Source: Xenophilus sp. E41
Lineage (GTDB): Bacteria; Pseudomonadota; Gammaproteobacteria; Burkholderiales; Burkholderiaceae_C
DNA length: 64,000 nucleotides
Direction of reading: 5' to 3'
Assembly: GCF_003671765.1 (NCBI RefSeq)
Contig: NZ_QPIB01000008.1
Span: 62,001 to 126,000, forward strand
Positions within the stretch are counted from its first letter, which is position 1, and every line of letters begins with the position of its first letter. The translations under genes and the position numbers were made by a program. The notes below the pieces were generated by a model that searched no databases, was not told where the DNA came from, and saw only the letters and a list, made by a program, of their open reading frames with translations. Shown one piece after another: positions 3,488 through 51,748 of the stretch.

Positions 3488-4282
3488 TCAGGCCCTGTCC
3501 GACAACCGCCCCGCCGCGCTCGCATGCAGGCAGATGGCGGCCGCGGCGGCCACGTTCAGCGATTCCTCGCCACCCGGTTGCGCGATGCGGATGTGCTGCG
3601 ACGCGCGCGCCTCCAGCGCCGGCGAGACGCCCTGCCCTTCGTGGCCCAGCAGCCAGGCGCAGGGCATCGGCAACCGGGACTCGTGCAGCCACTCCCCACG
3701 GTGCGAGCTGGTGGCGATCCACGGCATCTGCAGGGCGTCGAGCGCATCGGGCGTCGCACCTTCGACCAGTTGCAAACCGAAATGCGCACCCATGCCGGCC
3801 CGCAGCACCTTGGGCGACCACAGCGCCGCCGTGCCCTTGAGCGCCACCACCTGGCCGAAGCCGAAGGCGGCCGCACTGCGCAGGATGGAGCCCACATTGC
3901 CCGGATCCTGCAGCCGATCGAGCAGGACCGTCGGCACGCTGGGCGACAACGCAGGCGGCGCCGGCAGGTCGAGCACGAAACCCATGGGCGCCGGCGACTC
4001 GAGGCCGCTGCCGGCGGCCAGCAGCGCATCGTCGACCACTACGGTCTTGATAGCAGCCTGCGTCCATCCCGCGGGGGCCCGAGGCCAAAAAGACTCCGAA
4101 AACACCGCCACGGACGGCCGCAGGCCCCGGGAGAGCGCGGCCCGGCACAGGTGGTCGCCCTCGAGCCACACCCGGCCGAGCTTGCGGTAGGCGCCGGGGT
4201 CCTGCGCCAGCTTGCGCAGCTCCTTGAGCAAGGGGTTGTCGCGCGACTGGATGCGCGTCGGCTCGGGCGGGCTCACGGACAC
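3488..4282 (-). CDS. TrmH/SpoU-family RNA 2'-O-methyltransferase
   Basis: Predicted SAM-dependent 2'-O-ribose methyltransferase of tRNA or rRNA with a knotted SPOUT fold. All three family motifs are present: motif 1 at 118-140 (LDRLQDPGNVGSILRSAA), motif 2 at 210-220 (WLLGHEGQGVS) and motif 3 at 232-250 (QPGGEESLNVAAAAA). The 264-residue length and the N-terminal substrate-binding part starting around IQSRDNPLLKELR fit the RlmB/TrmH group, but the target nucleotide cannot be told from sequence. Residues about 64-81 are encoded by a copy of the dispersed GCTAT repeat. The stop is 8 bases from the previous gene rnhB, so it is likely the last gene of the lpx-rnhB run. Confidence 0.9.
   Translation of the reverse strand: MSVSPPEPTRIQSRDNPLLKELRKLAQDPGAYRKLGRVWLEGDHLCRAALSRGLRPSVAVFSESFWPRAPAGWTQAAIKTVVVDDALLAAGSGLESPAPMGFVLDLPAPPALSPSVPTVLLDRLQDPGNVGSILRSAAAFGFGQVVALKGTAALWSPKVLRAGMGAHFGLQLVEGATPDALDALQMPWIATSSHRGEWLHESRLPMPCAWLLGHEGQGVSPALEARASQHIRIAQPGGEESLNVAAAAAICLHASAAGRLSDRA
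4038..4099 (+). repeat. GCTAT repeat copy a (inside the methyltransferase gene)
   Basis: Degenerate head ACTACGGTCTTGATAGC at 4038-4054, then a 20-base spacer starting AGCCTGCG, then a GC-rich tail ending GAGGCCAAAAAG. It lies on the strand opposite to the gene. Read by the gene it gives QAAIKTV, keeping the GCT codon in frame. Confidence 0.55.
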
Positions 4283-4290
4283 GGCGAGAT

Positions 4291-4983
4291 TCAGGCGGCG
4301 GGCTGCGACAGGGCGAGCTCGACAGTCTGCACCTGCACGGAGATGGAAGCCGACATGACGGGTACACGCGCCAGGGCCTCTGCCACAGGCGAGAACGAGC
4401 GCCGGTGATGCACGCAGGCGCCATGCACCTGCAGGGCCGCCAGGTGTTCAGGCGTGCCGTAGCCCTTGTGCCCGGCGAAGCCGTAGGCCGGGAATTCCAC
4501 GTGCAGCTGCTCGCACAGCCGGTCGCGGTGCACCTTGGCCAGGATCGACGCGGCCGAGATCGCCTTCACCAGCGCATCGCCCTTGACCACCGCCTCGGCC
4601 AGCACGTCCAGTGTGGGCAGGCGGTTGCCGTCCACCAGCACCTTGGCCGGCTTGAGCCGCAGCCCGTCGACCGCGCGACGCATGGCCAGCATCGTGGCGC
4701 CGAGGATGTTGTGGGTGTCGATCTCCTCCACGCTGGCCTGTGCGATGGAGCAGCACAGCGCCTTGGCGAGGATCTGGTCGTGCAGCTTCTCGCGCTGCAG
4801 GGCCGTGAGCGTCTTGGAGTCGGCCAGGCCGCGGATGGGTTTCTGGTCGTCCAGGATCACCGCGGCTGCCACGACCGGGCCGGCCAGCGGGCCGCGGCCT
4901 GCTTCGTCCACGCCGGCAAGGAGACCGGGCGCGTCCCAGACCAGACGCGCTTGCTCAGCCTTCAAGAACTTTCTGGATCGCAT
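4291..4983 (-). CDS. rnhB: ribonuclease HII
   Basis: RNase HII cuts the RNA strand of RNA-DNA hybrids and removes misincorporated ribonucleotides. The four metal-binding acidic residues are all present: D26 and E27 in [16 protein letters not shown]118 in [10 protein letters not shown], and D154 in [14 protein letters not shown]. At 230 residues it is slightly longer than the E. coli enzyme because of a tail ending ALSQPAA. The ATG at 4983 makes the gene overlap the end of lpxB by 29 bases, and no shorter ATG precedes the catalytic motif. The lpxB-rnhB order is the same as in E. coli and many proteobacteria. Confidence 0.96.
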
Positions 4984-6109
4984 CGGCGCACAGTGTCGGC
5001 GTATCGCGCTGCAGTTGCACGTGCATGGCGGTGAATTTTCGTTCCACCGCCTGCACCCGGTCCGGATCCTGGAGCCAGGCCAGCGTGGCCTCGGCCAGCG
5101 CCTCCGGGCTGGCCGCGTCCTGCAGGAGTTCGGGCACCACGAACTCGCCGCACAGGATGTTCGGCAAACCCACCCACGGCTGCAGCTGCTGGCGGTGCAT
5201 CAGGTGCCAGGACACACGGTTCATGTTGTAGGCGATCACCATGGGCCGCTTGAACAGCGCCGCCTCCAGCGTCGCCGTGCCGCTGGCGATGAGCGTCGCG
5301 TCGCAGGCCGCCAGCACCGCGTGCGACTGGCCGTCGACCAGACGGACGCGCCCGGCCATCGGGCTGGCGGCCAGCAGCTGCTCGGCCTCCGCGCGCAGGC
5401 TGGGGATCACGGGCGCTATGAATTCCATAGCAGGCTGCGTACGCTGCATGAGCGCTGCAGCTGAAAAGAACCGCGAAGCGAGGTAGCGCAACTCGGAGCG
5501 GCGGCTGCCCGGAAGCAGCGCCACGACGGGTGCCTCCATCGACAGGCCCAGCGCCCGACGCGCCGCGGCCCGGTCGGGCTGCATGGGAATGACGTTGGCC
5601 AGCGGGTGGCCGACGTAGCTGGCCGCGACGCCCTGCTCCGCCAGCAGCGCCGGCTCGAATGGGAAGATGCACAGCACGTGGTCTGCTGCGGCGCGGACTT
5701 TCTCGATGCGGTCGGCGCGCCAAGCCCAGATGGAGGGGCAGACGAAGTGCACGGTCTTGATGCCGCGCCCGCGCAGGCCGGCCTCGAGGTCGAGGTTGAA
5801 GTCGGGCGCATCGACGCCGATGAAGAGCTCGGGCCACTCGCGCAGCAGCCGCGCCTTGAGCTGGCGACGGATAGCGGCGATCTCGGCGTAGTGGCGCAGC
5901 ACCTCGATGTAGCCGCGCACCGCCAGCTTCTCCTGCGGCCACCAGCTCTCGAAGCCGCGCGCGATCATCTGCGGGCCGCCGATGCCGACCGTCTTCACGT
6001 CCGGGAAGCGGCGCTGCAGGCCGTCCAGCAGCAGGCCCGCGAGCAGGTCGCCCGAGGGCTCGCCGGCCACGAGGGCGAACTGTCGTGCCTGCGCGTTCTC
6101 GCCCGTCAT
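4955..6109 (-). CDS. lpxB: lipid-A-disaccharide synthase
   Basis: LpxB is a peripheral inner-membrane GT19 glycosyltransferase that joins UDP-diacylglucosamine and lipid X to form the lipid A disaccharide. Family motifs visible are the N-terminal [21 protein letters not shown], the [12 protein letters not shown] segment, LLPGSRRSE, and [12 protein letters not shown] near the end. I prefer the ATG at 6109 (384 residues) because a GGGG precedes it at suitable distance; an in-frame GTG at 6118 is an alternative. Residues about 214-231 are encoded by a copy of the GCTAT repeat, in a segment between the SGR motif and the UDP-binding part that is variable in the family. Confidence 0.96.
5415..5476 (+). 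repeat. GCTAT repeat copy b (inside lpxB)
   Basis: Head GCTATGAATTCCATAGC at 5415-5431, a spacer of exactly 20 bases, then GCGCTGCAG at 5452-5460 followed by CTGAAAAG. It is antisense to lpxB, which reads it as AAALMQR...PAMEFIAP without any stop. Confidence 0.8.
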
Positions 6110-6182
6110 CGCGTGCACCCCGATGCCGCGTGCCTGGACGTCGACGGCAGGCGGTGGAGGGAGATGTCGCCCCAGCCCCGCA

Positions 6183-6971
6183 TCAGCGCGCGATGCCGCT
6201 GGCCGCCGTGGCGAGGAAGCCGTCCATCAGCGCCACGTCGGCCTCGATGCCGCCGCCGAGCGCGGCCAGGGCCTGGATACCGGAGCGCGCCTCGTCGAGC
6301 GTCTTGCCCTGGCGGTAGAGCAGCTTGTGCATCTCGCGGATTGCCGACAGCCTCTCGGCGGAGAAGTCGCGCCGCCGCAGGCCGACGAGATTGACGCCGC
6401 GCACCGTGAGCGGGTTGCCATCCACCACCATGAAGGGCGGGACGTCCTTGTTGACGTGGCCGGCGAAACCCACCATCGCATGGGCGCCGATGCGCATGCG
6501 CTGCAGCACGCCCACCAGCCCGCCGATGGTGGCCCAGTCGCCCACCTGCACGTGGCCGGCCAGGGTGGTGTTGTTGGCCATGGTGGTCTGGTTGCCGATC
6601 TGGCAGTCGTGCGCGATGTGCACGTAGGCCATGATCCAGTTGTCGTCTCCGATGCGCGTCGCGCCGGCGTCCTGCACCGTCCCGAGGTTGAAGGTGCAGA
6701 ACTCGCGGACCACGTTGCGATCGCCGATCACCAGCTCGGTGTCTTCACCGGCGTACTTCTTGTCCTGCGGAATCGCGCCCAGCGACGCGAACTGGAAGAT
6801 GCGGTTGTCGCGGCCGAGGGTCGTGCGGCCCTCGATCACGCAGTGCGGGCCGACGGTCGTGCCGGCGCCGATGCGCACCTTGGGGCCGATGACCGCATAG
6901 GGCCCGACCGTCACCGTGGCGTCGAGCTCGGCCTTCGGATCGACGAGCGCCGTCGGATGGATCTGCGTCAT
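6183..6971 (-). CDS. lpxA: UDP-N-acetylglucosamine O-acyltransferase
   Basis: LpxA starts lipid A synthesis by moving a 3-hydroxyacyl chain from ACP to the 3-OH of UDP-GlcNAc; it is a cytoplasmic trimer with a left-handed beta helix. Hexapeptide repeats run through the first 180 residues, and the catalytic histidine is H121 in [10 protein letters not shown]140 matches E. coli H144, but E. coli H160 is replaced by L156. The 'hydrocarbon ruler' glycine (E. coli G173) is replaced by F169 in [10 protein letters not shown], which suggests a short acyl chain. The usual length (262) is kept. It follows fabZ by 12 bases and precedes lpxB. Confidence 0.97.
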
Positions 6972-6983
6972 TCGGCCGGCGGC

Positions 6984-7436
6984 TCAGGCGTCGATCCGGC
7001 GCATGGCGCACATCAGGTGCGCCTCGCAAGCGACTTCGGTTCCCACCAGGGCACGGCCCTTGAACTTGGAGATACCGGCCTTCATGCGGTCGATCTCGAC
7101 CTCCAGCGTGAGCTGGTCGCCCGGCTCGACCGGGCGCTTGAAACGCGCGCCGTCGATGGCCGCGAAGTAATAGACCATGTTCTCGTCCGGCACGATGTCC
7201 AGCGACTTGAAGGACAGCAGCGCCGCCGCCTGCGCCATCGCCTCGAGCATGAGTACGCCGGGCATCACCGGGCGGTGCGGGAAGTGGCCGTTGAAGAAGG
7301 GCTCGTTCATCGTCACGTTCTTCAGCGCGGTGATGCGCTTGCCCTTCTCCATGTCCAGCACGCGGTCCACCAGCAGGAAGGGGTAGCGGTGCGGCAGGAG
7401 CTTGAGGATCTGGTGGATGTCGAGCGTCGTCGTCAT
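6984..7436 (-). CDS. fabZ: 3-hydroxyacyl-[ACP] dehydratase
   Basis: FabZ dehydrates 3-hydroxyacyl-ACP to trans-2-enoyl-ACP during fatty acid elongation and so competes with LpxA for the same substrate pool. The 150-residue hot-dog protein begins [20 protein letters not shown]; the catalytic pair is H51 in [12 protein letters not shown] and E65 in LMLEAMAQ. The ATG start at 7436 overlaps the lpxD stop in an ATGA (7433-7436), so coupling is expected. A much longer open frame extends upstream but is only an overlap with lpxD in another frame. Confidence 0.97.
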
Positions 7437-8422
7437 GGTGTCTTGTTGTCCGGCCCCATCGACTTTTCGAGGGCCTTGAGTCGTTCCCGCAGCGTGTGCA
7501 GCTGCTTCAGGGTGGCAGCGTTCTTCTCCCACGCCGCATTGTCGTCGATGGGAAACATGCCGGTGTATTGCCCAGGCTTCAGGATGGAGCGCGTGACCAC
7601 CGTCGCTGCCGAGATGTGCACGCCATCGGCCAGCCGGAGGTGCCCGAGCACGATCGCGCCGCCGCCGATGGTGCAATTCGCGCCGATGTCGGCACTGCCG
7701 GCCACACCCACACAGCCGGCCATCGCGGTGTGCCTGCCGACGCGCACGTTGTGGCCGATCTGGATCAGGTTGTCGAGCTTGACGCCGTCCTCGATGACGG
7801 TGTCCTCCAGCGCGCCGCGGTCGATGCAGGTGTTGGCGCCAATCTCGACGTCGTCGCCGATGCGCACGGCACCGAGCTGCTCGATCTTCACCCAGGCGCC
7901 CTGGTGCGGCGCCAGCCCGAAGCCGTCGGCACCGACCACCACGCCCGGATGCAGCAGGCAGCGGGCGCCGACCACGCAGTCCTCGCTGACGGTGACGCGC
8001 GACTTGAGCACCGTGCCGGCGCCGATGCGGGCGCCGCGCTCGACCACGCACAGCGCACCGATGCGCGCGGTGGGGTCGACCTGCGCGGCCGGGTCGATCA
8101 CCGCCGAGGAATGGATGCGTGGGCCTTCCACGCGCGCATGCCGCGCCTTCCACAGCTGCGTGAGCCGGGCGAAGTACAGGTAGGGGTCGTCGCTGACGAT
8201 GAAGCTGCCGCGCTCGGCGGCTGCCTCGCGCATCGCGGGCGACACAATGACACAGGCCGCCCGGGAGGCGGCCAGTTCCTTGCGGTACTTGGGGTGGCTG
8301 AGGAAGCTCAGCGCATCGGGCCCGGCGGTGGCCAGGGGCGCGAGGCGCCGGACTTCGAAGGCCTCGTCGCCCTGCAGCTCGCCACCGAGCGCATCGACGA
8401 TCTCACCGAGTCGCAGTGCCAC
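7433..8422 (-). CDS. lpxD: UDP-3-O-(3-hydroxyacyl)glucosamine N-acyltransferase
   Basis: LpxD adds the second 3-hydroxyacyl chain (amide-linked) in lipid A synthesis. The 329-residue protein has an N-terminal uridine-binding domain (about 1-100), a left-handed beta helix of hexapeptide repeats (about 105-280), and a short C-terminal helix rich in charged residues that normally binds ACP. The catalytic base is H224 in [11 protein letters not shown]. It starts 13 bases after the skp stop and overlaps fabZ by 4 bases. Confidence 0.97.
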
Positions 8423-8435
8423 GCCAGTCAGGGCG

Positions 8436-8963
8436 TCACTTGCCGTTGCCGGCCGGCGCCGCGTTCAGGGCCTTGATGACCTTCTCGGTGATGTCGTGCT
8501 TCGGATTGACATACACCGCGTCCTGCAGGATCACGTCGTACTTCTCGGCCTCTGCGACCTGCTTGATGGCGCGCTGTGCGCTCTCGTAGACCTTCTGCAG
8601 CTCTTCGCTGCGGCGCAGGTTCAGGTCTTCCTGGAACTCGCGCCGCTTGCGCTGGAAGTCGCGGTCCTGGTCCACCAGCTGGCGCTGGCGGGCGGTGCGC
8701 TGCGACTCGGACAGGGTCGGCGCTTCACGCTCGAACCTGTCCGAAGCGGTCTTCAGCCCGGCTTCCTGGTCCTTGAGGTCCTTCTCGCGCTTGAGGAACT
8801 CCTGCTCGAGACGTGCCTGCGCGGCCTTGGCCGCGGGCGCCTCGCGCATCACGCGGTCGGGGTTGACGACGCCGAAGCGAAATGCTTCCTGCGCCCAGAC
8901 GGGATTGACGGCGGCCGCGCCTGCGAGCGCGGCAGCGGCGACCCATTGATACAGCTGCTTCAT
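8436..8963 (-). CDS. skp: periplasmic OmpH/Skp-family chaperone
   Basis: Skp holds unfolded outer-membrane proteins in the periplasm and hands them to the BAM complex. The 175-residue protein has a signal peptide ending around VWAQ (residues 21-25), a short core strand starting [12 protein letters not shown], and a long charged coiled-coil stretch (about 45-130) typical of the tentacles. It ends with another beta segment ([20 protein letters not shown]). The start codon shares one base with the bamA stop (TGATG). Confidence 0.94.
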
Positions 8964-11515
8964 CAGAAAGAAGTCCCGATCTGGAACTGGACGCGCTGCA
9001 CGCGGTCCGCAGGAATGAGGGGGTAGAAGGGGTTGTCAGGGTTGGTGACTTCCTTCTGCTGGCGGATCGGCACCGCGTACGACAGACGCAGCGGGCCCAG
9101 TGGCGAGATCCAGCTGATGCCGATGCCCGCCGATGCCCGGAACTTGCGCTCGGCCTTGTAGCGGCGCTCGCACTGCTCCGCCGTTTCGCCCGGCAGGCCG
9201 ATGAAGGGATTGGCCACCGCGCAGCTCTTGTCGCCGAACACGTTGCCGGCGTCCAGGAAGGTGTACAGGCGCAGCGTCCGGTCGTTGCCGGCACCGGGGA
9301 ACGGCGTGCTCAGCTCGATGTTGAACACGGCCTTCTTGGTGCCGCCGAGTGCCGCCTGCGTGATGGAGTCGCGCGGGCCAAGCGAGTTCTGCTCGAAGCC
9401 GCGCACGGAGCCCAGGCCACCGGCGTAGAAGTTCTTGAAGATCGGGAATTCCTTGCCGCCGTACGCCTTGGCAGCGCCGATGTCCGCGTTGAGCGCCAGT
9501 GTGTACTGCTTGGACAGCGGGATGAACTGCTGGTACTGGTAGCTCGTCTTGACGTACTTGAAGTCGCCACCGACGCCCACCTCCAGGTTGGCGCGCTGCA
9601 GCCGGCCGCGCGTCGGCACCAGCGCACTGTCGCGGTCGTCGCGTGCCCAGCCCACGGTCAGGGGGATGCCCCACACCGAGTCCTGGCTGCAGCTCAGCGC
9701 GTAGCTGTTGCTCACGGCGTTGAGGTACGCACCGTTGGAGCCGCCGCGGCTGCACCCGAAGTAGTTCAGGTAGGCGCCGGGCACCGAGCGTGCATAGATG
9801 TAGCGGTAGTAATTCGCCGTCGTCGGCTGATTGAGCAGGTCGTAGATGTCGGCCGCGTTGAGCAACGACGACGCACCGGTCTCGAACTTGTAGCGCTCGA
9901 CGCCCGCGCCGAAGAACACCGTGTCGATCTCGCTGAACGGCACACCGAAGCGGATGGAACCTCCTTCGCTGGTCAGCGTGTAATCGCCGTCCTGCGAGTA
10001 GTACGGCGTGGTGCGCTGGTGGAAGACGCTCAGCGTGCGCGAGATGCCGTCCTTGGTGAAGTACGGATCGGTGGTGGTCAGCGAGATCGTGCGGTTGAAC
10101 TTGCTGGTGTTGACCTGCAGGCCCAGATAGTTGCCCGAGCCGAACACGTTCTCCTGCGTGATGCCGAAGTTGAGCGACACCTTCTCCGCGCTCGAGAAGC
10201 CGGCACCGAGCTGCAGCGTGCCCGTCGGCTTTTCCTCGACCTGCACGGTCAGGTCGACCTGGTCCGGCGAGCCCGGCACTTCCTGGGTCTCGACGTTGAC
10301 TTCCTTGAAGTAGCCCAGGCGGTCGACGCGCTCGCGCGACAGCTTGATGCGGTCGCCGTCGTACCAGGAGGCCTCGTACTGGCGGAACTCGCGGCGGATC
10401 ACTTCGTCGCGCGTCTTGTTGTTGCCGGCCACGTTGACCTTGCGAACATAGACCCGGCGCACCGGCTCGGCCTGGAGCACCAGGGTCACGCGATTGTTCT
10501 GGCGGTCGATCTCGGGCTTGGCCTGCACCTTGGCGAAGGCATAGCCGAAGCTGGAGAAGTAGTCGCTGAAGGCCTTCGTGGTTTCGGTGACCTGGTCGCC
10601 GTTGTAGGCCTCACCCGGTTTGATGGTCACGAGCGACTTGAACTCTTCTTCCCGGCCCAGGTAGTTGCCTTCGAGCTTGACGCCCGAGACGACGTACTTC
10701 GGCCCTTCGGTGATGTTCACGGTGATCGACAGGTCCTGGCGGTCGGGGGAGATCGCCACCTGCGTGGAGTCGATTCGGAACTCCATGTAGCCGCGCGTGA
10801 TGTAGTACGAGCGCAGTTGCTCGAGGTCGGCGTTGAGCTTGGTGCGCGAGTACTGGTTGGACTTGGTGTACCAGGCCAGCCAGCCGCCCGTGTCCTGGTC
10901 GAACAGGCCCAGCAGCGTCGATTCGCTGAAGGCCTGGTTGCCCACGACGCGGATGTCCTTGATGCGCGCCGACTCCCCTTCGGTGACGGTGAAGGTGAGG
11001 TTCACGCGATTGCGCTCGATCGGCGTGACCGTGGTGACGACGTCGACGTTGTAGAGGCTGCGCGTGATGTACTGGCGCTTGAGCTCCTGCTCTGCGCGGT
11101 CGGCCAGCGCCTTGTCGTAGGGCCGGCCGTCGGCCAGGCCGATCTCGCGCAGAGCCTTCTGCAGCGCTTCCTTCTCGAACTCCTTGGTGCCCGAGAAGTC
11201 GACGCTCGCGATCGTGGGCCGTTCCTCGACGATCACCACCAGGACGTTGCCGCTGACATCGATGCGCACGTCCTTGAACAGTCCCAGATCGAACAGTGCA
11301 CGGATCGCCGCAGAGCCTCGGTCGTCGGTGTAGGTTTCACCCACGCGCAACGGCATCGACGCAAAGACGGTGCCCGGTTCCACCCGCTGGAGGCCTTCGA
11401 TCCGGATGTCGCGTACCGTGAAAGGTTCGACGGCCCAGGCGGCCGTCGCGGCCAGCGCGCTGGCCACCACCGCTGCCACGCTACGCAGGCGAAAGCGACT
11501 GAAGTGTGTGTTCAT
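8963..11515 (-). CDS. bamA: outer membrane protein assembly factor BamA
   Basis: BamA is the essential core of the BAM complex, an Omp85 barrel that folds and inserts outer-membrane proteins. With the ATG at 11515 it has 850 residues: a signal peptide ending near AAWA (about 28), five POTRA domains over roughly 30-450, and a C-terminal 16-strand barrel ending in the aromatic signature VQFQIGTSF. The barrel contains GLGSVRGFEQNSLG, the family VRGF motif of loop 6. A longer open frame upstream runs through rseP and is spurious. It lies between rseP and skp, the standard order. Confidence 0.97.
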   Translation of the reverse strand: MNTHFSRFRLRSVAAVVASALAATAAWAVEPFTVRDIRIEGLQRVEPGTVFASMPLRVGETYTDDRGSAAIRALFDLGLFKDVRIDVSGNVLVVIVEERPTIASVDFSGTKEFEKEALQKALREIGLADGRPYDKALADRAEQELKRQYITRSLYNVDVVTTVTPIERNRVNLTFTVTEGESARIKDIRVVGNQAFSESTLLGLFDQDTGGWLAWYTKSNQYSRTKLNADLEQLRSYYITRGYMEFRIDSTQVAISPDRQDLSITVNITEGPKYVVSGVKLEGNYLGREEEFKSLVTIKPGEAYNGDQVTETTKAFSDYFSSFGYAFAKVQAKPEIDRQNNRVTLVLQAEPVRRVYVRKVNVAGNNKTRDEVIRREFRQYEASWYDGDRIKLSRERVDRLGYFKEVNVETQEVPGSPDQVDLTVQVEEKPTGTLQLGAGFSSAEKVSLNFGITQENVFGSGNYLGLQVNTSKFNRTISLTTTDPYFTKDGISRTLSVFHQRTTPYYSQDGDYTLTSEGGSIRFGVPFSEIDTVFFGAGVERYKFETGASSLLNAADIYDLLNQPTTANYYRYIYARSVPGAYLNYFGCSRGGSNGAYLNAVSNSYALSCSQDSVWGIPLTVGWARDDRDSALVPTRGRLQRANLEVGVGGDFKYVKTSYQYQQFIPLSKQYTLALNADIGAAKAYGGKEFPIFKNFYAGGLGSVRGFEQNSLGPRDSITQAALGGTKKAVFNIELSTPFPGAGNDRTLRLYTFLDAGNVFGDKSCAVANPFIGLPGETAEQCERRYKAERKFRASAGIGISWISPLGPLRLSYAVPIRQQKEVTNPDNPFYPLIPADRVQRVQFQIGTSF

Positions 11516-11553
11516 CTGAGAAATGGGCCGGCGCGCATGGGGCCGGCGGATAG

Positions 11554-12924
11554 TTAACCAAAGAGCCGGTTCACGTCGTTGAAGAGTGCGATCGACATCA
11601 TGACCAGCAGCAGCGCGACCCCCCCGCGTTGCAACCGATCCATCCAGGCGTCGGAGACGCCCTTGCCGGTCAGGCCCTCCCAAAGATAATACATCAGGTG
11701 CCCCCCATCGAGGACCGGCAAAGGCATGAGGTTCAGCACGCCGAGGCTCACGCTGATGAGGGCGAGAAACACGAGGTACTGGGTCAATCCGAGGCTTGCC
11801 GACTTGCCTGCATAGTCGGCGATCGTGAGCGGTCCGCTGATGTTCTTGATGGACGCCTCGCCGATCAGCATCTTGCCCATCATGCGCACCGTGAGCGCCG
11901 ACACTTCCCAGGTGCGCACCACGCCACGCCAGAGTCCGTCGACCGCACCCTGGCGCACGGTCAGCATCTCGGGCGGGCTGCCCACGTAGGCGGCGACGCG
12001 GCCGACGCGCGCGGCGCCCTCCTCCCGCACGTCGGGCGTCACATCCAAGGTCACGACCCTGCCCTGGCGCTCGATGCGCCATGCCTGCGTGCGCGGTGCA
12101 TTGCCGTCGACCGAGGCACGGATGAGTTCGCGCAACTGCTGGCCGTCGACGACCTCGGCGCTGCCGATCGCGCGCACCACGTCGCCGCGCTGCAGACCTG
12201 CCCTTTCGGCAGCGCCGCCGGCCATGACCTCTCCGATCTCCGGTCGCGTGAAGGGTGCCAGGATGCCGATCTTGCGGAACATCTGCGGATCGGCATCCTT
12301 GGCCCCCATGCGGCCGAGCGGCAGCATGACCTGGTGGGCGCGCGTGCCGTCGGGCTGCGCGAGTTCGAGCGTCAGGTCCCGCCCGTCCAGCGCGCCACGG
12401 GTGATGCGCCAACGAAGATCCTCGAAAGACTGCACGGGCTCCAGGTCACCATCGAAGCCGGCCCGCGTCACCAGCTCGCCGCCACGCAACCCGGCCTCGG
12501 CGGCCAGCGAGCCGGCCACCGGCTGGCCGAGCACGGCCCTGGGCTCCTGCACGCCGATCCAGTTCACGGCGCTGTACAGCAGGACGGCCAGGAGCAGGTT
12601 GGCGATCGGACCCGCAGCCACGATCGCGGCGCGCGCACGAAGCGGCTGGGTGTTGAAGGCACGATGGCGCTCTTCCGGCGGCACCGGCGCCTCGCGTTCG
12701 TCCAGCATCTTCACGTAGCCGCCCAGCGGGAACGCGCCGATGACGAACTCGGTGTCCTGGCCGGGGTGCTGACGCCGCGGCCTCCAGCGCAGCAGCGTCT
12801 TGCCGAAGCCGATGGAGAAGCGCAGCACCCGCACGTTGCATGCGACTGCCACGCGATAGTGCCCGTACTCGTGGACGGCGATGAGCACGCCCAGGGCGAC
12901 GATGAAGGCAACGACGGTGAGCAT
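11554..12924 (-). CDS. rseP: RIP-type zinc metalloprotease RseP
   Basis: RseP is an inner-membrane site-2 protease that cuts anti-sigma factors within the membrane and clears signal-peptide remnants. The M50 zinc motif is H18-E19-x-x-H22 (AVHEYGHYRVA) in the first membrane segment; the third ligand lies in PLPVLDGGHLMYY (D406) in the last third. Between them are two PDZ-like regions, and there are about four membrane segments. The 456-residue length is normal. It sits 38 bases upstream of bamA, where envelope-stress control of outer-membrane assembly makes sense. Confidence 0.96.
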   Translation of the reverse strand: MLTVVAFIVALGVLIAVHEYGHYRVAVACNVRVLRFSIGFGKTLLRWRPRRQHPGQDTEFVIGAFPLGGYVKMLDEREAPVPPEERHRAFNTQPLRARAAIVAAGPIANLLLAVLLYSAVNWIGVQEPRAVLGQPVAGSLAAEAGLRGGELVTRAGFDGDLEPVQSFEDLRWRITRGALDGRDLTLELAQPDGTRAHQVMLPLGRMGAKDADPQMFRKIGILAPFTRPEIGEVMAGGAAERAGLQRGDVVRAIGSAEVVDGQQLRELIRASVDGNAPRTQAWRIERQGRVVTLDVTPDVREEGAARVGRVAAYVGSPPEMLTVRQGAVDGLWRGVVRTWEVSALTVRMMGKMLIGEASIKNISGPLTIADYAGKSASLGLTQYLVFLALISVSLGVLNLMPLPVLDGGHLMYYLWEGLTGKGVSDAWMDRLQRGGVALLLVMMSIALFNDVNRLFG

Positions 12925-12945
12925 GGGAGGCTCCTGTGAGCGGCT

Positions 12946-14142
12946 TCAGGCCGCCAGCCTGATCGCTGCGGCGTTGGCAGCCGCACGCGCGCTGGCGTCG
13001 AGCGCCAGCAGATCCGCCAGCGATCCGGGATTGGACGGCGCCACCGCCTCCAAAGTTTCCAGGTTGACGGCATGGATGCGATCGAAACGCAGACGCCGGT
13101 CGAGGAAGGCAGCGACCGCGACCTCGTTGGCCGCATTGAGGACCGCCGTGGTGCCCGGTGGGGCGCGCAAGGTCTGCCAGGCGAGATCGAGGCCGGGGAA
13201 ACGGCCGGCGTCGGGGACTTCGAAGGTCAGCGCGCCCAGAGTGCGGAAGTCGAGACGGGCGGTGCCGCTCTCGACCCGCGCCGGCCAGGCGAGGCCGCAG
13301 GCGATGGGCACCCGCATGTCGGGCGTGCCCAGTTGCGCCAGCACCGAGCCGTCGACGAACTGCACCATCGAATGGATCACGCTCTGCGGATGGATGACGA
13401 CCTCGATCTGGTCCGGCGATACGCCGAAGAGATGGCGGGCCTCGATCACCTCGAGCGCCTTGTTCATCATGGTCGCCGAGTCCACCGAGATCTTGCGCCC
13501 CATGACCCAGTTGGGGTGGGCGCAGGCCTGCTCGGGGGTGACGGCCGCCAGCGTATGGGCCTCGCGCTCGCGGAAGGGCCCACCGGATGCAGTCAGGACG
13601 ATCTTGTCGATGCGCTGCGGCCAGACCGCCGGGTCTTCGGGCAGGCACTGGAAGATCGCGGAATGCTCGCTGTCGATGGGCAGCAGGGTCGCGCCACCGC
13701 GCCGCACGGCGTCCATGAACAGTTCGCCGCCCACCACCAGCGCTTCCTTGTTGGCCAGCAGCAGGCGCTTGCCGGCACGCGCGGCGGCCAGGCACGGCGC
13801 CAGGCCGGCAGCGCCGACGATGGCGGCCATGACGATGTCGACGTCGTCGTCCGACGCTATGGTTTCAATAGCATCTTGGGCAATGATCACGCGGGTTTCA
13901 AGCCCGTTTTGCTTGAGCTTTTCGACCAGCAGCGCAGCATGGGGTTCGCTCGCCATCGCCGCGAACCGCGGCTTGAACCGCGCGCACTGTGCGAGCAACT
14001 CGTCCACCTTGGTGGCCGCCGACAGCGCGAACACCTCGAAGCGATCCGGGTGACGGGCAATCACGTCCAGCGTGCTGACACCCACCGAGCCGGTCGAGCC
14101 CAGCACGGTGACGCGTTGGCGGGGAACGGAAAGGGTCTTCAC
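12946..14142 (-). CDS. dxr: 1-deoxy-D-xylulose 5-phosphate reductoisomerase
   Basis: Dxr (IspC) makes 2-C-methyl-D-erythritol 4-phosphate with NADPH, the second step of the MEP isoprenoid pathway; ispD and ispF lie 24 kb away in this window. The protein has 398 residues with a GTG start at 14142 that overlaps the cdsA stop by 4 bases. The NADPH site is GSTGSVG at 15-21; further signatures are [28 protein letters not shown], and [16 protein letters not shown]. Residues about 75-96 are encoded by a copy of the GCTAT repeat, with no visible damage to the reading frame. Confidence 0.97.
13856..13917 (+). repeat. GCTAT repeat copy c (inside dxr)
   Basis: Head GCTATGGTTTCAATAGC at 13856-13872, 20-base spacer, then the hairpin-type tail GGGTTTCAAGCCCGTTTTGC followed by TTGAG. 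It is antisense to dxr, which reads the head as DAIETIA in the permissive frame. The tail variant resembles a Rho-independent terminator and is close to that of copy h. Confidence 0.75.
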
Positions 14143-14987
14143 AGGGACGCGAGCATCATCGCGAGCGGCAGCGTCGGCAACAGGGCATCCACCCGGTCGA
14201 GCACGCCACCATGGCCCGGCAGGAGCTGGCTGCTGTCCTTGGCGCCGGCACTGCGCTTGATGAGCGACTCGACCAGGTCGCCCACGACGCTCATTGCCGC
14301 GAGGAACAACGCGCCCAGCACGAGCAGCCACCATCCGCGCCCCGCCAGGTGCGAGTAGAGGCTCGGCACCAGCGCCCCCGCCGCCCGGTCCGCCCAGACC
14401 CAGGCGAAGGCGAGCACCAGCACGCCGATCATGCCGCCCCAGACGCCTTCCCAGCTCTTGCCGGGACTGATTGCCGGCGCCAGCTTGTTGCGCGTGAACT
14501 TGAGGCCGAAGGCACGACCCGCGAAATAGGCGAACACGTCGGCCACCCACACGAGGACCAGGATCGACAGCAGGAAGTTGATGCCGATCATGCGGGCATG
14601 CACCACGGCCAGCCACGCCACCCAGAGTGCCAGCAGCCCGCCCACGAGCCGAAGCGGCTTGGGAATCCGCGGCCATCCGGGCACGGCCACCTTGAGCAAG
14701 GCGCCACCGACCAGCACCCACGCCGCGCCGGCGACGATCCACAACCCGGTCAACCGCAGCTGAAGCAGGCCCAGAACCCAGGACAGGACGCACAGCGCCA
14801 AGGCCTCGAAGCCGATGAACAGCGCCATGCGCGGGCCATAGCCGTTCAGCCGGCCCCACTCCCAGCCGGCCGCTGAGATCATCACCAGCATGATGCAGGC
14901 GAAGGGGACGTGAGATCCGGGATAGAACAGCGCCGGCAGCAGGATCGCGAGCAGGACGAGCGCGGTGATGATGCGTTGCTTGAGCAT
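14139..14987 (-). CDS. cdsA: phosphatidate cytidylyltransferase
   Basis: CdsA makes CDP-diacylglycerol from CTP and phosphatidate in the inner membrane, the branch point for all phospholipids. The 282-residue protein has about eight hydrophobic segments and the C-terminal family signature with [20 protein letters not shown], plus [13 protein letters not shown] earlier. It begins 8 bases after the uppS stop and overlaps dxr by 4 bases (GTGA). Confidence 0.97.
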
Positions 14988-14995
14988 GCGCGCCG

Positions 14996-15739
14996 TCAGG
15001 CTGTTTGTTGCTGGGGAGCCGCCGGGGCGGCAGCGCCATCGAGCTGGGCGGAGGTCTGGCCGAAACGCCGTTCGCGTCGGCCGAAGGCGGCGATCGCCTC
15101 GTCCAGCGCGGCCTCGTCGAAATCGGGCCAGAGGCGGTCGCTGAAGAACAGCTCCGCGTAGGCGCTCTGCCAGAGAAGGAAATTGGACAGTCGCTGCTCA
15201 CCGCCGGTGCGGATGAACAGGTCCGGGTCCGGCACGTGGGCGAGCGCCATCGCGCGGTCGAGGTTGAGCTCGGTCGGCGGCAGGCCCTGGGCTGCCAGCG
15301 TGGCCGCCGCCTGTGCGATGTCCCAGCGTCCGCCATAGTTGAAGCAGACGTTGAGCACCAGCCGCCCATTGTGCGCCGTGGCAGCCTCTGCCTGCGCGAG
15401 GCCGTTGCGGATCCGCTCCGACAGCCCCTGACGCTCGCCGACGAAATGCAGCCGCACGCCGTCTGCCTGAAGCTGCGGCACCTCGCGGCCGAGCGCCACG
15501 ACGAGGAGTTCCATCAGGCCCGACACCTCGTCCTGGGGCCGGTTCCAGTTCTCCGACGAGAAGGCGAACACGGTCAGCACCGCCACGCCCCGGTCGGCAC
15601 AGGCCTTGACGCAGCGACGCAGCGACTCGACGCCCTGCTTGTGGCCCGCCACCCGCGGGAGAAAACGGCGGGTGGCCCAACGGCCGTTGCCATCCATCAC
15701 GATGGCGATGTGATGCGGGACGGTGCGCGAGGCACTCAT
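14996..15739 (-). CDS. uppS: isoprenyl (undecaprenyl) diphosphate synthase
   Basis: UppS is the cis-prenyltransferase that builds the undecaprenyl carrier lipid for peptidoglycan and other envelope polymers. The catalytic aspartate is D16 in [10 protein letters not shown]; further motifs are [11 protein letters not shown], the mid-protein [12 protein letters not shown], and [20 protein letters not shown] chose ATG 15739 (247 residues, [10 protein letters not shown]); a TTG at 15754 would add five residues. A three-hairpin element separates it from frr, so its transcription may be partly uncoupled from the upstream translation genes. Confidence 0.96.
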
Positions 15740-15766
15740 CGAAGGTCGGCGCAAGCGATGGCCACG

Positions 15767-15857
15767 GGCGCCGCCGAGCGGCGCCGGGCCGCCCCAAGCC
15801 GCGAGCGATCCCCCGGGGGGCAGCGACCCACGCGCAGCGGGCGGAGCGTGGGGGCCA
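15767..15857. repeat. three-hairpin intercistronic element between frr and uppS
   Basis: Three adjacent inverted repeats fill the gap: GGCGCCGC/GCGGCGCC (15767-15774 and 15778-15785, loop of 3), CCCCCGGGGG (15810-15819), and CCCACGC/GCGTGGG (15827-15833 and 15846-15852, loop of 12). No T-run follows on the minus strand, so it is not a standard intrinsic terminator. It resembles a REP-type element; I have seen similar strings in related genomes but cannot cite a name. Confidence 0.6.
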
Positions 15858-15860
15858 GGG

Positions 15861-16421
15861 TCATACGGCCATGATCTCCGCCTCTTTGGCGGTGACCAGC
15901 TTGTCGATCTCGGCGATGTAGCGGTCGGTGACCTTCTGGATGTCGGCCTCGGCGCGCTTCTGGTCGTCCTCGGAGGCCTGCTTGTCCTTGACCAGCTTCT
16001 TCACGGCCTCGTTGGCATCGCGGCGCAGGTTCCGGGTGGCGATCTTGGCGTTCTCGCCCTCGTTGCGCGCCAGCTTGGTCATCTCCTTGCGGCGCTCCTC
16101 GCTCATCGGCGGCATCGGCACACGGATGAGGTCGCCCATGCTGGCGGGGTTCAGGCCCAGGTCGCTTTCGCGGATGGCCTTCTCGATCTTGGCGCCCATG
16201 CCCTTTTCCCAGGGCTGCACGCTGATCGTGCGTGCATCGATCAGCGCCACGTTCGCGACCTGCGACAGCGGCACCTGCGAGCCGTAATATTCCACGTGCA
16301 CGGCATCGAGCAGCGCCGGGTTGGCACGGCCGGTGCGGATCTTCGACAGGTTGTTCTGGAAGGCCGCGATCGACTGTTTCATCTTCGCTTCGGCCTGGTT
16401 GCGGATATCTGCAATGGTCAT
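15861..16421 (-). CDS. frr: ribosome recycling factor
   Basis: RRF works with EF-G to split post-termination ribosomes. It has 186 residues, the normal length, and is nearly all helix; typical segments are [17 protein letters not shown], the [20 protein letters not shown] turn, and [16 protein letters not shown]. The ATG at 16421 has GGAG 8 bases upstream and shares one base with the pyrH stop (TGATG). A longer upstream frame exists but lacks support. Confidence 0.97.
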
Positions 16422-17155
16422 CAGTGAGTCTCCTGGGCATGCACCAGCGTGCCTTCGTCCTCGCCCATCACGACGCGCTTGAGGGCGCCGTTCTTGAAGA
16501 TCGAGAACACCTTGATCGGCAGGTTCTGATCGCGGCACAGCGCGAACGCGGTCGCATCCATGATGCCGAGGTTCTGCGCGATGGCCTCGTCGAAACTGAG
16601 CTTCGAATAGCGCGTCGCCGACGGGTCCTTCTTGGGATCGGCGCTGTAGACGCCGTCGACCTTGGTGGCCTTGAGCACCAGTTCGGCACCGATCTCGGCG
16701 CCGCGCAGTGCGGCCGCGGTGTCGGTGGTGAAGAACGGGTTGCCGGTGCCGGCCGCGAAGACCACCACCTTGCCTTCCTCGAGGTACTGCAGCGCCTTGG
16801 GCCGCACGTAGGGCTCGACCACCTGCTCGATCGCAATGGCCGACATCACGCGTGCCGTGAGCCCTTGCTTGTTCATGGCATCGGCCAGCGCCAGCGAGTT
16901 CATCACCGTGGCCAGCATGCCCATGTAGTCGGCGGTGGCGCGGTCCATGCCGACGGAACCGCCCGCGACGCCGCGGAAGATGTTGCCGCCGCCGATGACG
17001 ACGGCCACCTCGACGCCGAGGTTCACCACCTCCGCCACCTCCTCCACCATGCGCACGATCGTCGCGCGGTTGATGCCGAAGGCATCGTCACCCATCAGCG
17101 CCTCACCCGACAGCTTCAACAAGATTCGCTTGTGGGCTGGGCGGGCGTCGGGCAT
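16421..17155 (-). CDS. pyrH: UMP kinase
   Basis: PyrH phosphorylates UMP to UDP and is a hexameric amino-acid-kinase-fold enzyme regulated by GTP and UTP. The 244-residue protein starts [20 protein letters not shown]; the nucleotide-binding [11 protein letters not shown] and the [18 protein letters not shown] segments are present. The ATG at 17155 has AGAGGA upstream at about 9 bases. The in-frame extension to 17224 is unlikely. It is coupled to frr by the TGATG overlap. Confidence 0.97.
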
Positions 17156-17250
17156 GGGCAAGGTCCTCTGGAGGTTGGCGGTGGGAGTGTAAGTCGTGGA
17201 GGAGTCAGGACGGGGCGGCGCCACGACGGCGCGCGCCCCGGCGGGCGGGC

Positions 17251-18174
17251 TCAGGCGGCGGCCTTGGCGGCAGCGACCTGGGCGGCCACTTCGGCCGCGA
17301 AGTCGTCGACCTTCTTCTCGATGCCCTCGCCGACCACGAAGAGCGTGAAGCCCTTGATGGTGGTGCCTTTTTCCTTGAGCATCTGCTCGACGGTCTGCTT
17401 GTCGTTCTTCACGAAAGCCTGGTTGTGCAGCGAGACTTCCTTGAGGAACTTCTGCACGCCGCCTTCGATGCGCTTGGCAACGATGTCGGCCGGCTGCGGC
17501 TGCTTGCCCGCGGCTTCGGCGGCCTTGCGGTCTTCCTCGGCCTTGCCGGCGGCGACCGAACGTTCCTTCTCGATCAGCTCGGCGGGCACGTCGGCCGACG
17601 TCAGCGCGACCGGCTTCATGGCGGCGACGTGCATCGCCACGTCCTTGGCGGCCGTGTCGTCACCTTCGAACTCGACCACCACGCCGATGCGCGTGCCGTG
17701 CAGGTACGAGGCCAGCTTGGCATCCGACGCGAAGCGCTTGAAGCGGCGGAAGCTCATGTTCTCGCCGATCTTGCCGATCAGGCCTTTGCGCACGTCTTCC
17801 AGCGTGGGGCCGAAGCTGTCCTGGGAATAGGGCAGCGCGCCCAGCGCGGCCAGGTCGGCCGGGTTGTGCTTGGCGACCAGCTCGGCCGCGGCCTGGGCCA
17901 TGGCGATGAACGAGTCGTTCTTGCTCACGAAGTCGGTTTCGCTGTTGACTTCGACCATGGCGCCGGTCTTGCCGTCGAGGTACGCGGCGACCACGCCTTC
18001 GGCCGTGACGCGGGCGGCGGCCTTGCCGGCCTTGTTGCCCAGCTTGACGCGCAGGATCTCCTCGGCCTTTTCCATGTTGCCTTCGGCCTCGGTCAGGGCC
18101 TTCTTGCATTCCATCATCGGCGCGTCGGTCTTGGCGCGCAGTTCGGCGACCATGCTAGCGGTGATTGCAGCCAT
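17251..18174 (-). CDS. tsf: translation elongation factor Ts
   Basis: EF-Ts is the guanine-nucleotide exchange factor for EF-Tu. It has 307 residues, slightly above E. coli (283). The N-terminal module includes [20 protein letters not shown]; the core carries the family segment [20 protein letters not shown] that contacts EF-Tu. A GGAG lies about 8 bases before the ATG. The hairpin between rpsB and tsf suggests that its level is set partly by read-through from rpsB. Confidence 0.98.
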
Positions 18175-18208
18175 TTGATTACTCCGTCCGTTATCTCAAA
18201 TTCAGATT

Positions 18209-18236: not shown

Positions 18237-18257
18237 TCAGGCTCGCGCAGCGCCAGC

Positions 18258-44364: not shown

Positions 44365-44426
44365 GCTATCGTTTTCGTAGCTGCTTGCGCAGGCGGGGCG
44401 GGCGCTGCAGCCAGATTCCCCTTTAG
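44365..44426 (+). repeat. GCTAT repeat copy e (intergenic, after serB)
   Basis: Head GCTATCGTTTTCGTAGC at 44365-44381, 20-base spacer beginning TGCTTGCGCA, GCGCTGCAG at 44402-44410, then CCAGATTCCCC. It lies in the convergent gap after serB; the far end touches the stop of the next minus-strand gene. A GCTGCTTGCGC/GCGCTGCAGC stem can form. Confidence 0.85.
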
Positions 44427-44743
44427 ATATTGTCTTCGGCGGCGTCCTCGCTCCCGGCCGGTGCCGCATGCCGCGCCGCCGGCCGCGCCGTGAACTCCAC
44501 GTAGATCTGGGGCTGTTGCGTGCGCGCCGCCTCGTCGATCAGCGCGTTGAGCGAGGCCAGGTTCACGGCCTGCGCCTCCTCGGCGCTGGGGCCGAAGCGG
44601 CAATCGAATTCCCAGTGGTGGGCGCCCTCGGGCAGCGGATGGCGGCGGTCGCGCTTGAGCGCCTTGCGGATGTCGTGGCGGATCGCGTCGAGCACACGGT
44701 CCGGGTGCCGGCCCTCGATCTGCAGGGGAAAGGTTTTTCTCAT
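44423..44743 (-). CDS. small conserved cytoplasmic protein of unknown function
   Basis: 106-residue protein beginning MRKTFPLQIEGRHPDRVLDA, with a basic helical segment (IRHDIRKALKRDRRHPLP) and HHWEFDCRFGPSAEEA. I recall a DUF family with this opening in many proteobacteria (possibly DUF6172), but I cannot confirm the number. Basic face plus acidic tail (GSEDAAEDNI) could suggest nucleic-acid or protein binding. ATG 44743 is chosen; the frame extends upstream without support. Divergent from the next small gene. Confidence 0.8.
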   Translation of the reverse strand: MRKTFPLQIEGRHPDRVLDAIRHDIRKALKRDRRHPLPEGAHHWEFDCRFGPSAEEAQAVNLASLNALIDEAARTQQPQIYVEFTARPAARHAAPAGSEDAAEDNI

Positions 44744-48059: not shown

Positions 48060-48062
48060 TGC

Positions 48063-50334: not shown

Positions 50335-50399
50335 GGACGACTGCGCCCCTGCCGAGGCCGTCGTTGCAGCCCCACGCAACGCGGGAGCCGCAGCGGTGA

Positions 50400-50972
50400 T
50401 CAATCCAGGTCGATATCGACGCAGCGGCGCGCACTGAAGGCCATCGGTGCCGACGGCCAGTCCGCCGCGCTGGCCGGCACGCGCACGCCGCGCGCGATCA
50501 GCTCCACCGCCCGCATCACGCCCGAATGCGTGACCCACGCGGCGTCGGCGCCCACGGCGCGCCAGTCGTCCCAGGCGCCGGCCACGCGGGCCATGAACTG
50601 GCGCGTGCTCTCGCCGTGGCCGCCTGGCCGCGCGTCGGCGAAGTCGGCGGTCCAGGCGTCGAACTCGCCGCGGGCAATGGCGTGCCAGGGCTGGCCCTCC
50701 CAGGCGCCGAAGTCCATCTCGGCCAGGCGCGGGTCGATGCGCACGGGCGGCAGGTCGGGCCGCAGCGCGGCGAGCGCCTGCGCCAGCGCGAGGCAGCGGA
50801 CGAGCGGCGAACTCCACAGCGCCACGCCGGCAGGCAGTTCGGCCGCCAGTGCCGCCGCCGCGGCGTGCGTCGCCGCGTCCTCGGCCGCGTGGTCGGTGGC
50901 GCCGTAGCACAGGCCCGGCGCGCACAGCACGGGCGCATGGCGCTGCAGCCAGAGCCTCAGGCGAGTTGCCAT
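50400..50972 (-). CDS. cobC: histidine phosphatase, probable alpha-ribazole phosphatase
   Basis: 190-residue phosphoglycerate-mutase-like phosphatase at the end of the cobalamin cluster. The phosphohistidine is H12 in LWLQRHAPV (RHA instead of the usual RHG), with RxxRT-like SSPLVRCLALAQ, EMDFGAWEGQ and the second catalytic histidine in WVTHSGVMRAV. By context next to cobS it would remove the 5'-phosphate of alpha-ribazole phosphate or adenosylcobalamin phosphate. The name rests on neighbourhood. ATG 50972 is chosen, overlapping cobS by 16 bases; a longer frame lies upstream in cobS. Confidence 0.82.
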   Translation of the reverse strand: MATRLRLWLQRHAPVLCAPGLCYGATDHAAEDAATHAAAAALAAELPAGVALWSSPLVRCLALAQALAALRPDLPPVRIDPRLAEMDFGAWEGQPWHAIARGEFDAWTADFADARPGGHGESTRQFMARVAGAWDDWRAVGADAAWVTHSGVMRAVELIARGVRVPASAADWPSAPMAFSARRCVDIDLD

Positions 50973-51748
50973 GCCAGCACCCCGTACATCGCCAGCTCGC
51001 ACACCTGCTGCGTGGCGCCCAGGCCATCGCCCGTGAAACCCTGCAGCCGCCGGCGGAACAGGCGGGCCATCCACAGCGCGGCGAATGCGCACGCGGCCAG
51101 CATTGCTCCTGTTTTCATAGCGCCTTGCGCAAGCAGGACGAGCGCTGCAGCCGGAATCGACCACAAGATGCCAACCGCCAGCGCGCCGCCACCGATGGCA
51201 TCGGCCAGCGGCTTGGACTTGCTCGCCCCGCTGTCGCCCACGTAGGGCAGGAAGCGGATCAGGAACAGCGGCGCCAAGCGCGACAGCACGTGCCCCGCGA
51301 AGAGCACCGCCACGACCGCCGACACGCCCTGCAGCGCAATGGCCGCCAGCAATGCCACCTTGAGCCCCAGCGCCAGCACCAGCGCAATGGCTCCGAAGGC
51401 GCCGATGCGCGAATCCTTCATGATCTCCAGCGCCCGCTCGCGCTGCGCGCTGCCGCCCAGCCCGTCGGCGACATCGGCCAGGCCGTCCTCATGGAAGGCG
51501 CCGGTCAGCCATACGGTGGCGACGGTGCTCAGCACTGCGGCCACCAGCGGCGGCAGCCCCTGCGACGCCAGCACGAACACGGCCGCAGCCACGCCGCCCA
51601 CGATCCAGCCCACGCCCGGGAAATGCGCCGCGCTGGCACGCAGCATCTGCGGGCTGTACCCGACCCAAGCGGCCAGCCGCCCGGTGACGGGCACGCGGGT
51701 GAAGAACTGCAGCGCGAGCAGGAAGTGGCGCAAAGGGTTCACGCTCAT
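50957..51748 (-). CDS. cobS: adenosylcobinamide-GDP ribazoletransferase
   Basis: CobS is the inner-membrane cobalamin (5'-phosphate) synthase that joins AdoCbi-GDP and alpha-ribazole. The 263-residue protein has about six membrane segments and the family motifs LQFFTRVPV, TGAFHEDGLADVADGLGG, and MKDSRIGAFGAIAL. Residues about 196-214 (SIPAAALVLLAQGAMKTG) come from repeat copy f, which falls in a predicted membrane segment and keeps it hydrophobic. The ATG at 51748 overlaps the hydrolase stop by 4 bases (ATGA). Confidence 0.94.
   Translation of the reverse strand: MSVNPLRHFLLALQFFTRVPVTGRLAAWVGYSPQMLRASAAHFPGVGWIVGGVAAAVFVLASQGLPPLVAAVLSTVATVWLTGAFHEDGLADVADGLGGSAQRERALEIMKDSRIGAFGAIALVLALGLKVALLAAIALQGVSAVVAVLFAGHVLSRLAPLFLIRFLPYVGDSGASKSKPLADAIGGGALAVGILWSIPAAALVLLAQGAMKTGAMLAACAFAALWMARLFRRRLQGFTGDGLGATQQVCELAMYGVLAWQLA
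51105..51166 (+). repeat. GCTAT repeat copy f (inside cobS)
   Basis: Head GCTCCTGTTTTCATAGC at 51105-51121 (left half degenerate), 20-base spacer beginning GCCTTGCGCA, GCGCTGCAG at 51142-51150, then CCGGAATCG. It is antisense to cobS, which reads it in the permissive frame. Confidence 0.75.

Follow-up and report, generated by a model that had tools for sequence, protein, structure and literature searches.

The 64,000-nucleotide stretch of Xenophilus sp. E41 DNA analysed here (contig NZ_QPIB01000008.1, positions 62,001 to 126,000; hereafter the window) carries a dispersed repeat with a palindromic head, several copies of which lie within protein-coding genes. How did such a sequence come to stand there? 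An initial annotation proposed mobilisation in trans, in the manner of repetitive extragenic palindromes with their associated tyrosine transposases (REP/RAYT) or of miniature inverted-repeat transposable elements (MITEs). We found nothing inserted at the tested coding sites, whether in comparison with outgroups, in pairs with closer relatives or against solved homologues, and we tentatively favour a DNA-recognition motif spread by an uptake-like molecular drive.

A 64-base repeat in the window and the genome

All nine copies listed in the initial annotation are present at their positions. The fixed two-part geometry noted for them was borne out by 38 copies (30 of the 62 core matches in the genome and eight of the ten window copies) that align ungapped over 64 columns. 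The repeat of about 62 bases is thus real, but its conserved block measures 64 bases in register. The supposed head-only copy at 37593 proved to be complete, on the minus strand, and brings the number in the window to ten. These are listed here with their scores in bits.

4037 to 4100, plus strand: inside a SpoU-type rRNA methylase gene (3488-4282, minus; Pfam); 37.1 bits; outgroups of equal length, no motif
5414 to 5477, plus strand: inside lpxB (4955-6109, minus; Pfam, outgroups); 43.4 bits; ungapped against solved LpxB
13855 to 13918, plus strand: inside dxr (12946-14106, minus; Pfam, outgroups); 43.7 bits; ungapped against solved DXR
20633 to 20696, plus strand: TAG at columns 15-17 is the stop codon of gene 19267-20649 (overlap 17); 59.1 bits
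22711 to 22774, plus strand: inside a YjeF_N/Carb_kinase gene (22193-23659; Pfam), in an interdomain linker 15-24 bp shorter in outgroups; 74.9 bits
23655 to 23718, minus strand: convergent gap, 5-bp overlap with a gene end, terminator-like core; 54.8 bits
34626 to 34689, minus strand: in frame at the signal-peptide end of a SIMPL-domain open reading frame (ORF; 33987-34694, minus; Pfam); 63.7 bits
37547 to 37610, minus strand: between convergent genes, adjoining a YgbB-family gene (Pfam); 52.5 bits
44364 to 44427, plus strand: convergent gap, 5-bp overlap with the end of gene 44423-44743; 74.4 bits
51104 to 51167, plus strand: inside a CobS-family gene (50957-51748, minus; Pfam); 56.8 bits

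The 5.92-Mb genome has 62 occurrences of a 15-base core of the repeat, allowing one mismatch at most, and a single occurrence of the reversed pattern; a sequence-only model gave at least 150 genome matches, all with an expectation value (E) of 1.4e-10 or lower. A position weight matrix (PWM), trained and iterated on the same genome, was applied to 1.264 Mb of it (the window plus the initial 400 kb of each of contigs C43, C35 and C41). It recovered 127 copies scoring at least 24 bits, or 134 when the threshold is lowered to 10; the score distribution is bimodal and empty between 24 and 32. Markov-3 shuffled and reversed controls gave none at 10 bits or more, so the excess over shuffled sequence anticipated in the initial annotation is clear. 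The density is about one copy per 10 kb in this sample and one per 6.4 kb in the window; scaling of the sample would give about 600 copies in the whole genome. As a separate observation, contigs C39 and C40 of G000 show identical-score matches at a constant offset, perhaps reflecting a duplicated or redundantly assembled segment.

At fixed spacing, the intergenic consensus, TGCTATcgAATtGATAGCTGCtcGCGCacGCgGGACGGGCGCTGCAGCCCgATTTgGCTtGAAA, comprises a palindrome of 17 bp centred on an A-tract (GCTAT-N7-ATAGC), the inverted repeat GCGC...CGGGCGC and a tail reading TT...GAAA. Its strong columns are GCTAT (2-6), ATAGC (14-18), GCGC (24-27), CGGGCGCT (36-43), G47, C49 and TT (53-54). The total information content is 56.7 bits (without small-sample correction), where about 14 bits would suffice to single out the sites. 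Columns 9-11 read AA, AT or TT, with a TA step in only 2 of 127 (columns 9-10) and 1 of 127 copies; rigid A-tracts avoid TpA steps. Columns are linked only to others close by; beyond a distance of 12 columns the association stays at the null level, which rules out subfamilies of copies.

Origin of the copies within genes

Three relatives, G012, G002 and G013, form a same-genus clade with about 90% identity, and counts of orthologues rest on 29 sites. At orthologous positions these three mostly carry a copy, while G008 mostly has low-scoring sequence of equal length. The coding copies are ungapped in all 25 clade pairs and in all 14 pairs with G008. Relatives differ strongly in the presence of the motif, as the initial annotation had supposed, but the empty sites that it envisaged are mostly lacking.

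At three coding sites within positions 1-20000 of the window (the SpoU-type gene, lpxB and dxr), the outgroups have equal length, no motif and scores of −17 to −55 when aligned with MAFFT. G008 scores 5.6, 16.8 and 28.3 at these sites, and the clade 37-54. Six of the nine same-genus outgroups found were used (G001, G007 and G010 were left out), and five at dxr, where G009 was dropped. Random coding positions score about −80 on average (standard deviation 16); the outgroups lie above this mean and are therefore somewhat motif-like, through predisposition or old decay. The comparison relies on MAFFT, in which the lengths are equal; when gaps were made cheap in a pairwise aligner, 12 of 18 outgroup pairs acquired them, and in 11 of these 12 the gaps cancel to zero.

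Because the whole genus might share one old insertion, we also compared distant proteins. The PDB search took in six of the 38 coding copies, and the Pfam search all but two split ORFs. The motif segment is ungapped against solved DXR, PurK, CoaBC and LpxB, and also in MiaA, where a one-residue gap lies beside it; for PGI the alignment with the solved homologue is ambiguous, the motif falling in a variable loop. In Pfam, the motif-bearing domains of PurK, NIF3, RsmB, CoaBC, DXR, LpxB, ComEC and SpoU are within six residues of profile length, the SpoU match being a weak one to the substrate domain. Judged by these alignments, ungapped against outgroups and solved homologues alike, the tested coding copies arose through base substitutions in sequence that was already there, with nothing inserted.

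Rickettsia palindromic elements are in-frame insertions that lengthen the protein. The motif resembles them in being a palindromic repeat in a preferred frame within protein genes, but its segment replaces native residues at unchanged length (DXR, PurK, CoaBC, LpxB), and an in-frame insertion of this kind was rejected on the evidence of the relatives and the solved homologues.

Placement, maintenance and distribution

Gene positions were taken from our own gene caller, which can start genes late; on this basis 64 of the 127 copies are intergenic, 25 lie across a gene edge and 38 wholly within genes. The copy at 34626 is tallied as intergenic, since the caller starts the SIMPL-domain gene later. 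Copy centres are intergenic in 84 of 127 cases, though intergenic DNA makes up 10% of the sequence. Within genes, 33 of the 38 copies share one codon register: registers 2, 0 and 1 hold 16, 2 and 0 sense copies and 17, 3 and 0 antisense copies, respectively, and the consensus contains TGA TAG in sense register 1. Six of the edge copies give the gene its stop at the TAG of the motif and four give an ATG at column 57. The same register was found in 13 of 16 coding copies from other genera (80 loci).

One register of the motif reads A-I-x-L-I-A-A-C-A, resembling a lipobox or signal peptide, and the copies at 34626-34689 and in L019 form the start of a predicted secreted protein. A signal-peptide origin was rejected, since most copies do not serve as such starts; the use made of these two looks like a by-product.

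Copies occupy 15 of 67 convergent gaps, 43 of 352 tandem gaps and 6 of 145 divergent gaps. Forty lie within 20 bp of a stop codon, against 28.4 ± 2.7 at random placement, and 15 near a start, against 18.3 ± 2.6. The strands are balanced (63 plus, 64 minus), with no orientation bias. No pair of copies lies within less than 818 bp, where simulations with the same placement classes gave 7.1 ± 2.5 such pairs, and only 8 pairs are closer than 2 kb, against 21.8 ± 3.8 simulated. The copies are thus spaced apart, and none of the 127 in the 1.264-Mb sample is tandem or clustered. A 44.7-kb segment of the sample (C43:128436-173146, L067-L069) with a GC content of 0.584 and atypical codon use holds no copy and is perhaps an acquired island.

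For comparing conservation by column, gapped pairs were dropped beforehand (in the clade 5 of 10 intergenic and 4 of 11 edge pairs; with G008 3 of 7 and 5 of 5). Clade members agree at the 11 columns of at least 1.5 bits with an identity of 0.945 for copies inside genes, 0.964 in intergenic regions and 0.987 at edges. The corresponding flanks are at 0.900, 0.872 and 0.903 (range 0.87-0.90), and the lowest-information columns at 0.818, 0.800 and 0.636. The order is reversed for in-gene copies in G008, with 0.70 at the strongest columns, 0.77 at the weakest and 0.887 in the flanks. Where columns of 0.8 bits or more differ from G008, the E41 copy holds the consensus base in 97 cases, the relative in 22 and neither in 23; within the clade the figures are 49, 67 and 10. 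Over 294 kb of G008, scores of 6-40 account for most of the sites above background, and two sites reach 65 or more. G008 has either lost the driver of the motif or never completed the process. Drift back toward GC-rich codons could add to the losses, so that the change may have run in either direction.

Among 13 same-genus genomes (E 1e-3), G002, G012 and G013 have at least 150 matches each, G008 122, G005 nine, G004 two, G007 one and the other six none. Similar strings had been ascribed to Comamonadaceae in the initial annotation, and a dispersed DNA element is indeed found across the family: matches at E 1e-4 occur in 86 of 250 genomes, which represent 58 of 141 genera. Carriers among the matches listed include Polaromonas, Acidovorax, Rhodoferax, Curvibacter, Simplicispira, Giesbergeria, Diaphorobacter, Ramlibacter, Ottowia and Paenacidovorax. 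Giesbergeria, Rhodoferax, Ottowia and Polaromonas were looked up and all belong to the Comamonadaceae, to which we take the other listed genera to belong as well. A survey of 120 genomes of the order with strict filters at E 1e-6 returned E41 itself, one genome of the same family and one of another family, the latter two with one match each; this threshold is harsh, as the same-family genome had 16 matches at 1e-4. With one copy as query, 72,556 plasmid records gave one weak match and 50,697 phage records none.

A sister repeat has AATCGG-CTGCAGCGCCCG together with the hairpin and tail in common with the 64-bp motif, while the head CGTCACG-AA-CGTGACG replaces GCTAT-N7-ATAGC. It has 20 copies in the 1.264 Mb (17 intergenic, two at edges, one inside a gene) and none in the reversed control. 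Its copy in the window is the following.

57592 to 57679: sister repeat

At four compared sites the sister repeat is missing from G008, which has near-equal length at two of them and is 16 bp and 68 bp shorter at the others. A shared body that takes different heads would suit a recognition module.

In the literature searched, in which letters printed in figures would be missed, we found no text containing ATAGCTGCTTGCGC and no earlier description of a comparable repeat other than the beta-proteobacterial repeat element (BRE). According to PMC3110155, BRE copies are 75-91 bp long, often tandem with variable numbers of repeats, common in Bordetella and present in Comamonadaceae, and usually intergenic, with some wholly within coding sequences. 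Going by that description, the motif is likewise a dispersed Comamonadaceae repeat, mostly intergenic and sometimes within genes, but it differs in its 64-bp length and in that its copies are never less than 818 bp apart in the sample. A different dispersed repeat of 84-86 bp at 15772-15857, with 10 matches in the 1.264 Mb and tandem copies in G003 and G004, would fit the description of BRE better. Another of about 120 bp (L070:4106-4225) also has 10 matches there and occurs in G002, G008, G012 and G013 as well. Elsewhere in the window, ARAGORN places a possibly spurious tRNA-Val (cac) at 59828-59917, for which Rfam gives no match at the gathering score.

Candidate explanations

In the explanation that we place first, the 64-bp motif would be a recognition site in double-stranded DNA, driven and kept by a putative trans-acting recognition system that may operate in many Comamonadaceae and have been lost or fallen idle in others. 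The likeliest such system would be preferential uptake and recombination of motif-carrying DNA, a molecular drive like that of DNA uptake sequences (DUS) and uptake signal sequences (USS), pulling near-matches to the consensus wherever protein or intergenic context allows. In-place formation, strand neutrality, spacing, frame filtering and excess information are what molecular drive would give, and the excess (about 57 bits where about 14 are needed) may be better predicted by drive than by simple binding. We put an uptake-like driver forward as a possibility only, followed by a chromosome-binding protein and, third, by templated overwriting.

DUS grow by point mutation rather than insertion and have no orientation bias, and DUS and USS occur in ORFs and, in excess, in non-coding DNA, according to PMC1939737. 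The motif resembles them in its in-place origin (three window coding sites, four solved homologues), in its presence in ORFs with an excess in non-coding DNA, in its lack of orientation bias and in its even spacing. It differs in its palindromic head and in being much rarer, at about one per 10 kb, than DUS, whose density is much higher.

Several observations weigh against this reading. Compared with the 9-10 bp cores of DUS and USS, the motif, with 64 bp and about 57 bits, is far longer than any of them, and no uptake phenotype or receptor is known for it. Many new DUS have been argued, in PMC2397512, to arrive by recombination rather than point mutation. Copy density shows no relation to codon typicality (Spearman 0.12, P 0.17) or GC content; no significant core-genome bias was thus found, perhaps another difference from DUS and USS. 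Within the clade, conservation at columns of 0.8-1.5 bits (0.857-0.871) does not exceed that of the flanks, and maintenance is therefore shown only for the strongest, mostly A/T, columns. Family genomes rich in the motif (at least eight copies; 57 of 250) carry a Y1_Tnp gene in 50 of 57 cases, against 117 of 193 among the others (Fisher P about 1e-4, relatedness uncorrected). The LysE, AIRS_C, SDR, HemD, MiaA, UDG and CobS domains exceed their Pfam profiles by 5-38 residues, as do TPR_20 and Aldedh, in which the motif lies at the domain edge; the PGI domain, by contrast, is 13 residues shorter than its profile, and other copies lie in linkers or tails, where this length test is uninformative. 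The YjeF linker is 64 bp long where it holds the motif and 40-49 bp long in nine relatives that lack it, although G008, also without the motif, has 64 bp as well. Finally, the intergenic copy C43:98061 lies within 98 bp that are missing from G008 and present in G002, with no evident duplication.

Copies could instead be binding sites of a chromosomal protein (a nucleoid organiser, a segregation factor or a gene-end factor), kept by ordinary selection for spaced sites. The 17-bp palindrome would be typical of a dimer site, and the A-tract with its scarcity of TpA steps, the over-dispersed spacing, the preference for convergent gaps and stop-codon surroundings and the conservation of the strongest columns are all consistent with such a protein. 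However, the information content far exceeds what singling out the sites would need, and the function would have to be dispensable, given that the motif is wholly or nearly missing from same-genus species (none in six of the 13 genomes). We consider this explanation, the second in order, unlikely.

Templated overwriting, in which single-stranded copies of the motif would anneal to partial matches at replication forks or during ectopic gene conversion and take the place of host sequence of the same length, appears less probable still. It would account for replacement at unchanged length, for the large multi-base differences at equal length between G008 and the clade, and for the association with Y1_Tnp. 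Block copying should, however, leave the long-range column linkage that is absent here. Moreover, over six countable pairs, identity with the outgroups is higher at columns where the E41 copy departs from the consensus (101 of 157) than where it matches it (125 of 227), so native bases persist inside the copies.

That the motif is a REP/RAYT- or MITE-like element inserted in trans, with the coding copies as exceptions, we regard as highly improbable. Like REP sequences it is a dispersed, hairpin-capable repeat with a REP-like foot, and the genome contains one Y1_Tnp gene, on a contig other than that of the window; a weak copy of 19.5 bits lies at the stop codon of this gene. The association of Y1_Tnp with motif-rich genomes and the 98-bp absence at one intergenic site also speak for mobility. 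The link to RAYT drawn in the initial annotation is favoured by this association, uncorrected for relatedness, but not by the loci: around 20 Y1_Tnp loci of motif-rich genomes, about 74 kb contained eight copies of 12 bits or more, not above the density in E41, only six of the loci had any copy, and G011 has Y1_Tnp without the motif. Mobilisation by RAYT was rejected for this want of locality; RAYT may yet play some part, but insertion by it does not explain the coding copies. Unlike REP/RAYT systems, the motif shows no clustering and no insertion at the tested coding sites, which refutes mobility for those copies, and gaps with a copy are not longer than those without (medians 133.5 and 130.5). 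It differs from MITEs in the same ungapped coding sites and in that the 98-bp intergenic absence lacks an evident duplication.

The remaining alternative, a structured RNA element or a terminator working in transcripts, has a very slight probability in spite of the hairpin-forming parts, the excess of copies near stop codons and the terminator-like core of the copy at 23655: the structure suggested in the initial annotation was rejected for want of covariation, RNAalifold predicting two pairs, none compensatory, and the two proposed stems pairing in 80.8% of cells yet falling below the shuffle mean on all five measures (covariation score 0.071 against 0.093), while no window copy matched Rfam at gathering scores and copies within genes show no strand preference (18 sense, 20 antisense). 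The motif is a DNA rather than an RNA element.

It may be, though we would call it doubtful, that the Comamonadaceae possess a new genome-wide DNA address system, in which a 64-bp composite motif and its sister motif are written letter by letter into genes and gaps, spaced apart, and driven by dedicated recognition machinery gained and lost between genera. To our knowledge, this would be the longest motif known to spread by substitution. A 57-bit motif arising by point changes in core genes (dxr, lpxB, purK, coaBC), in one register, needs a strong and specific driver, and in-gene repeats of this kind should not be taken for insertions. One genus holds species in which the motif is full, part-way (G008) or missing, making drive and selection separable. 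If the motif is a binding site, it points to a new chromosome-organising protein. If the driver is DNA uptake, a large environmental family would join the two in which, as far as we know, motif-directed transformation is established.

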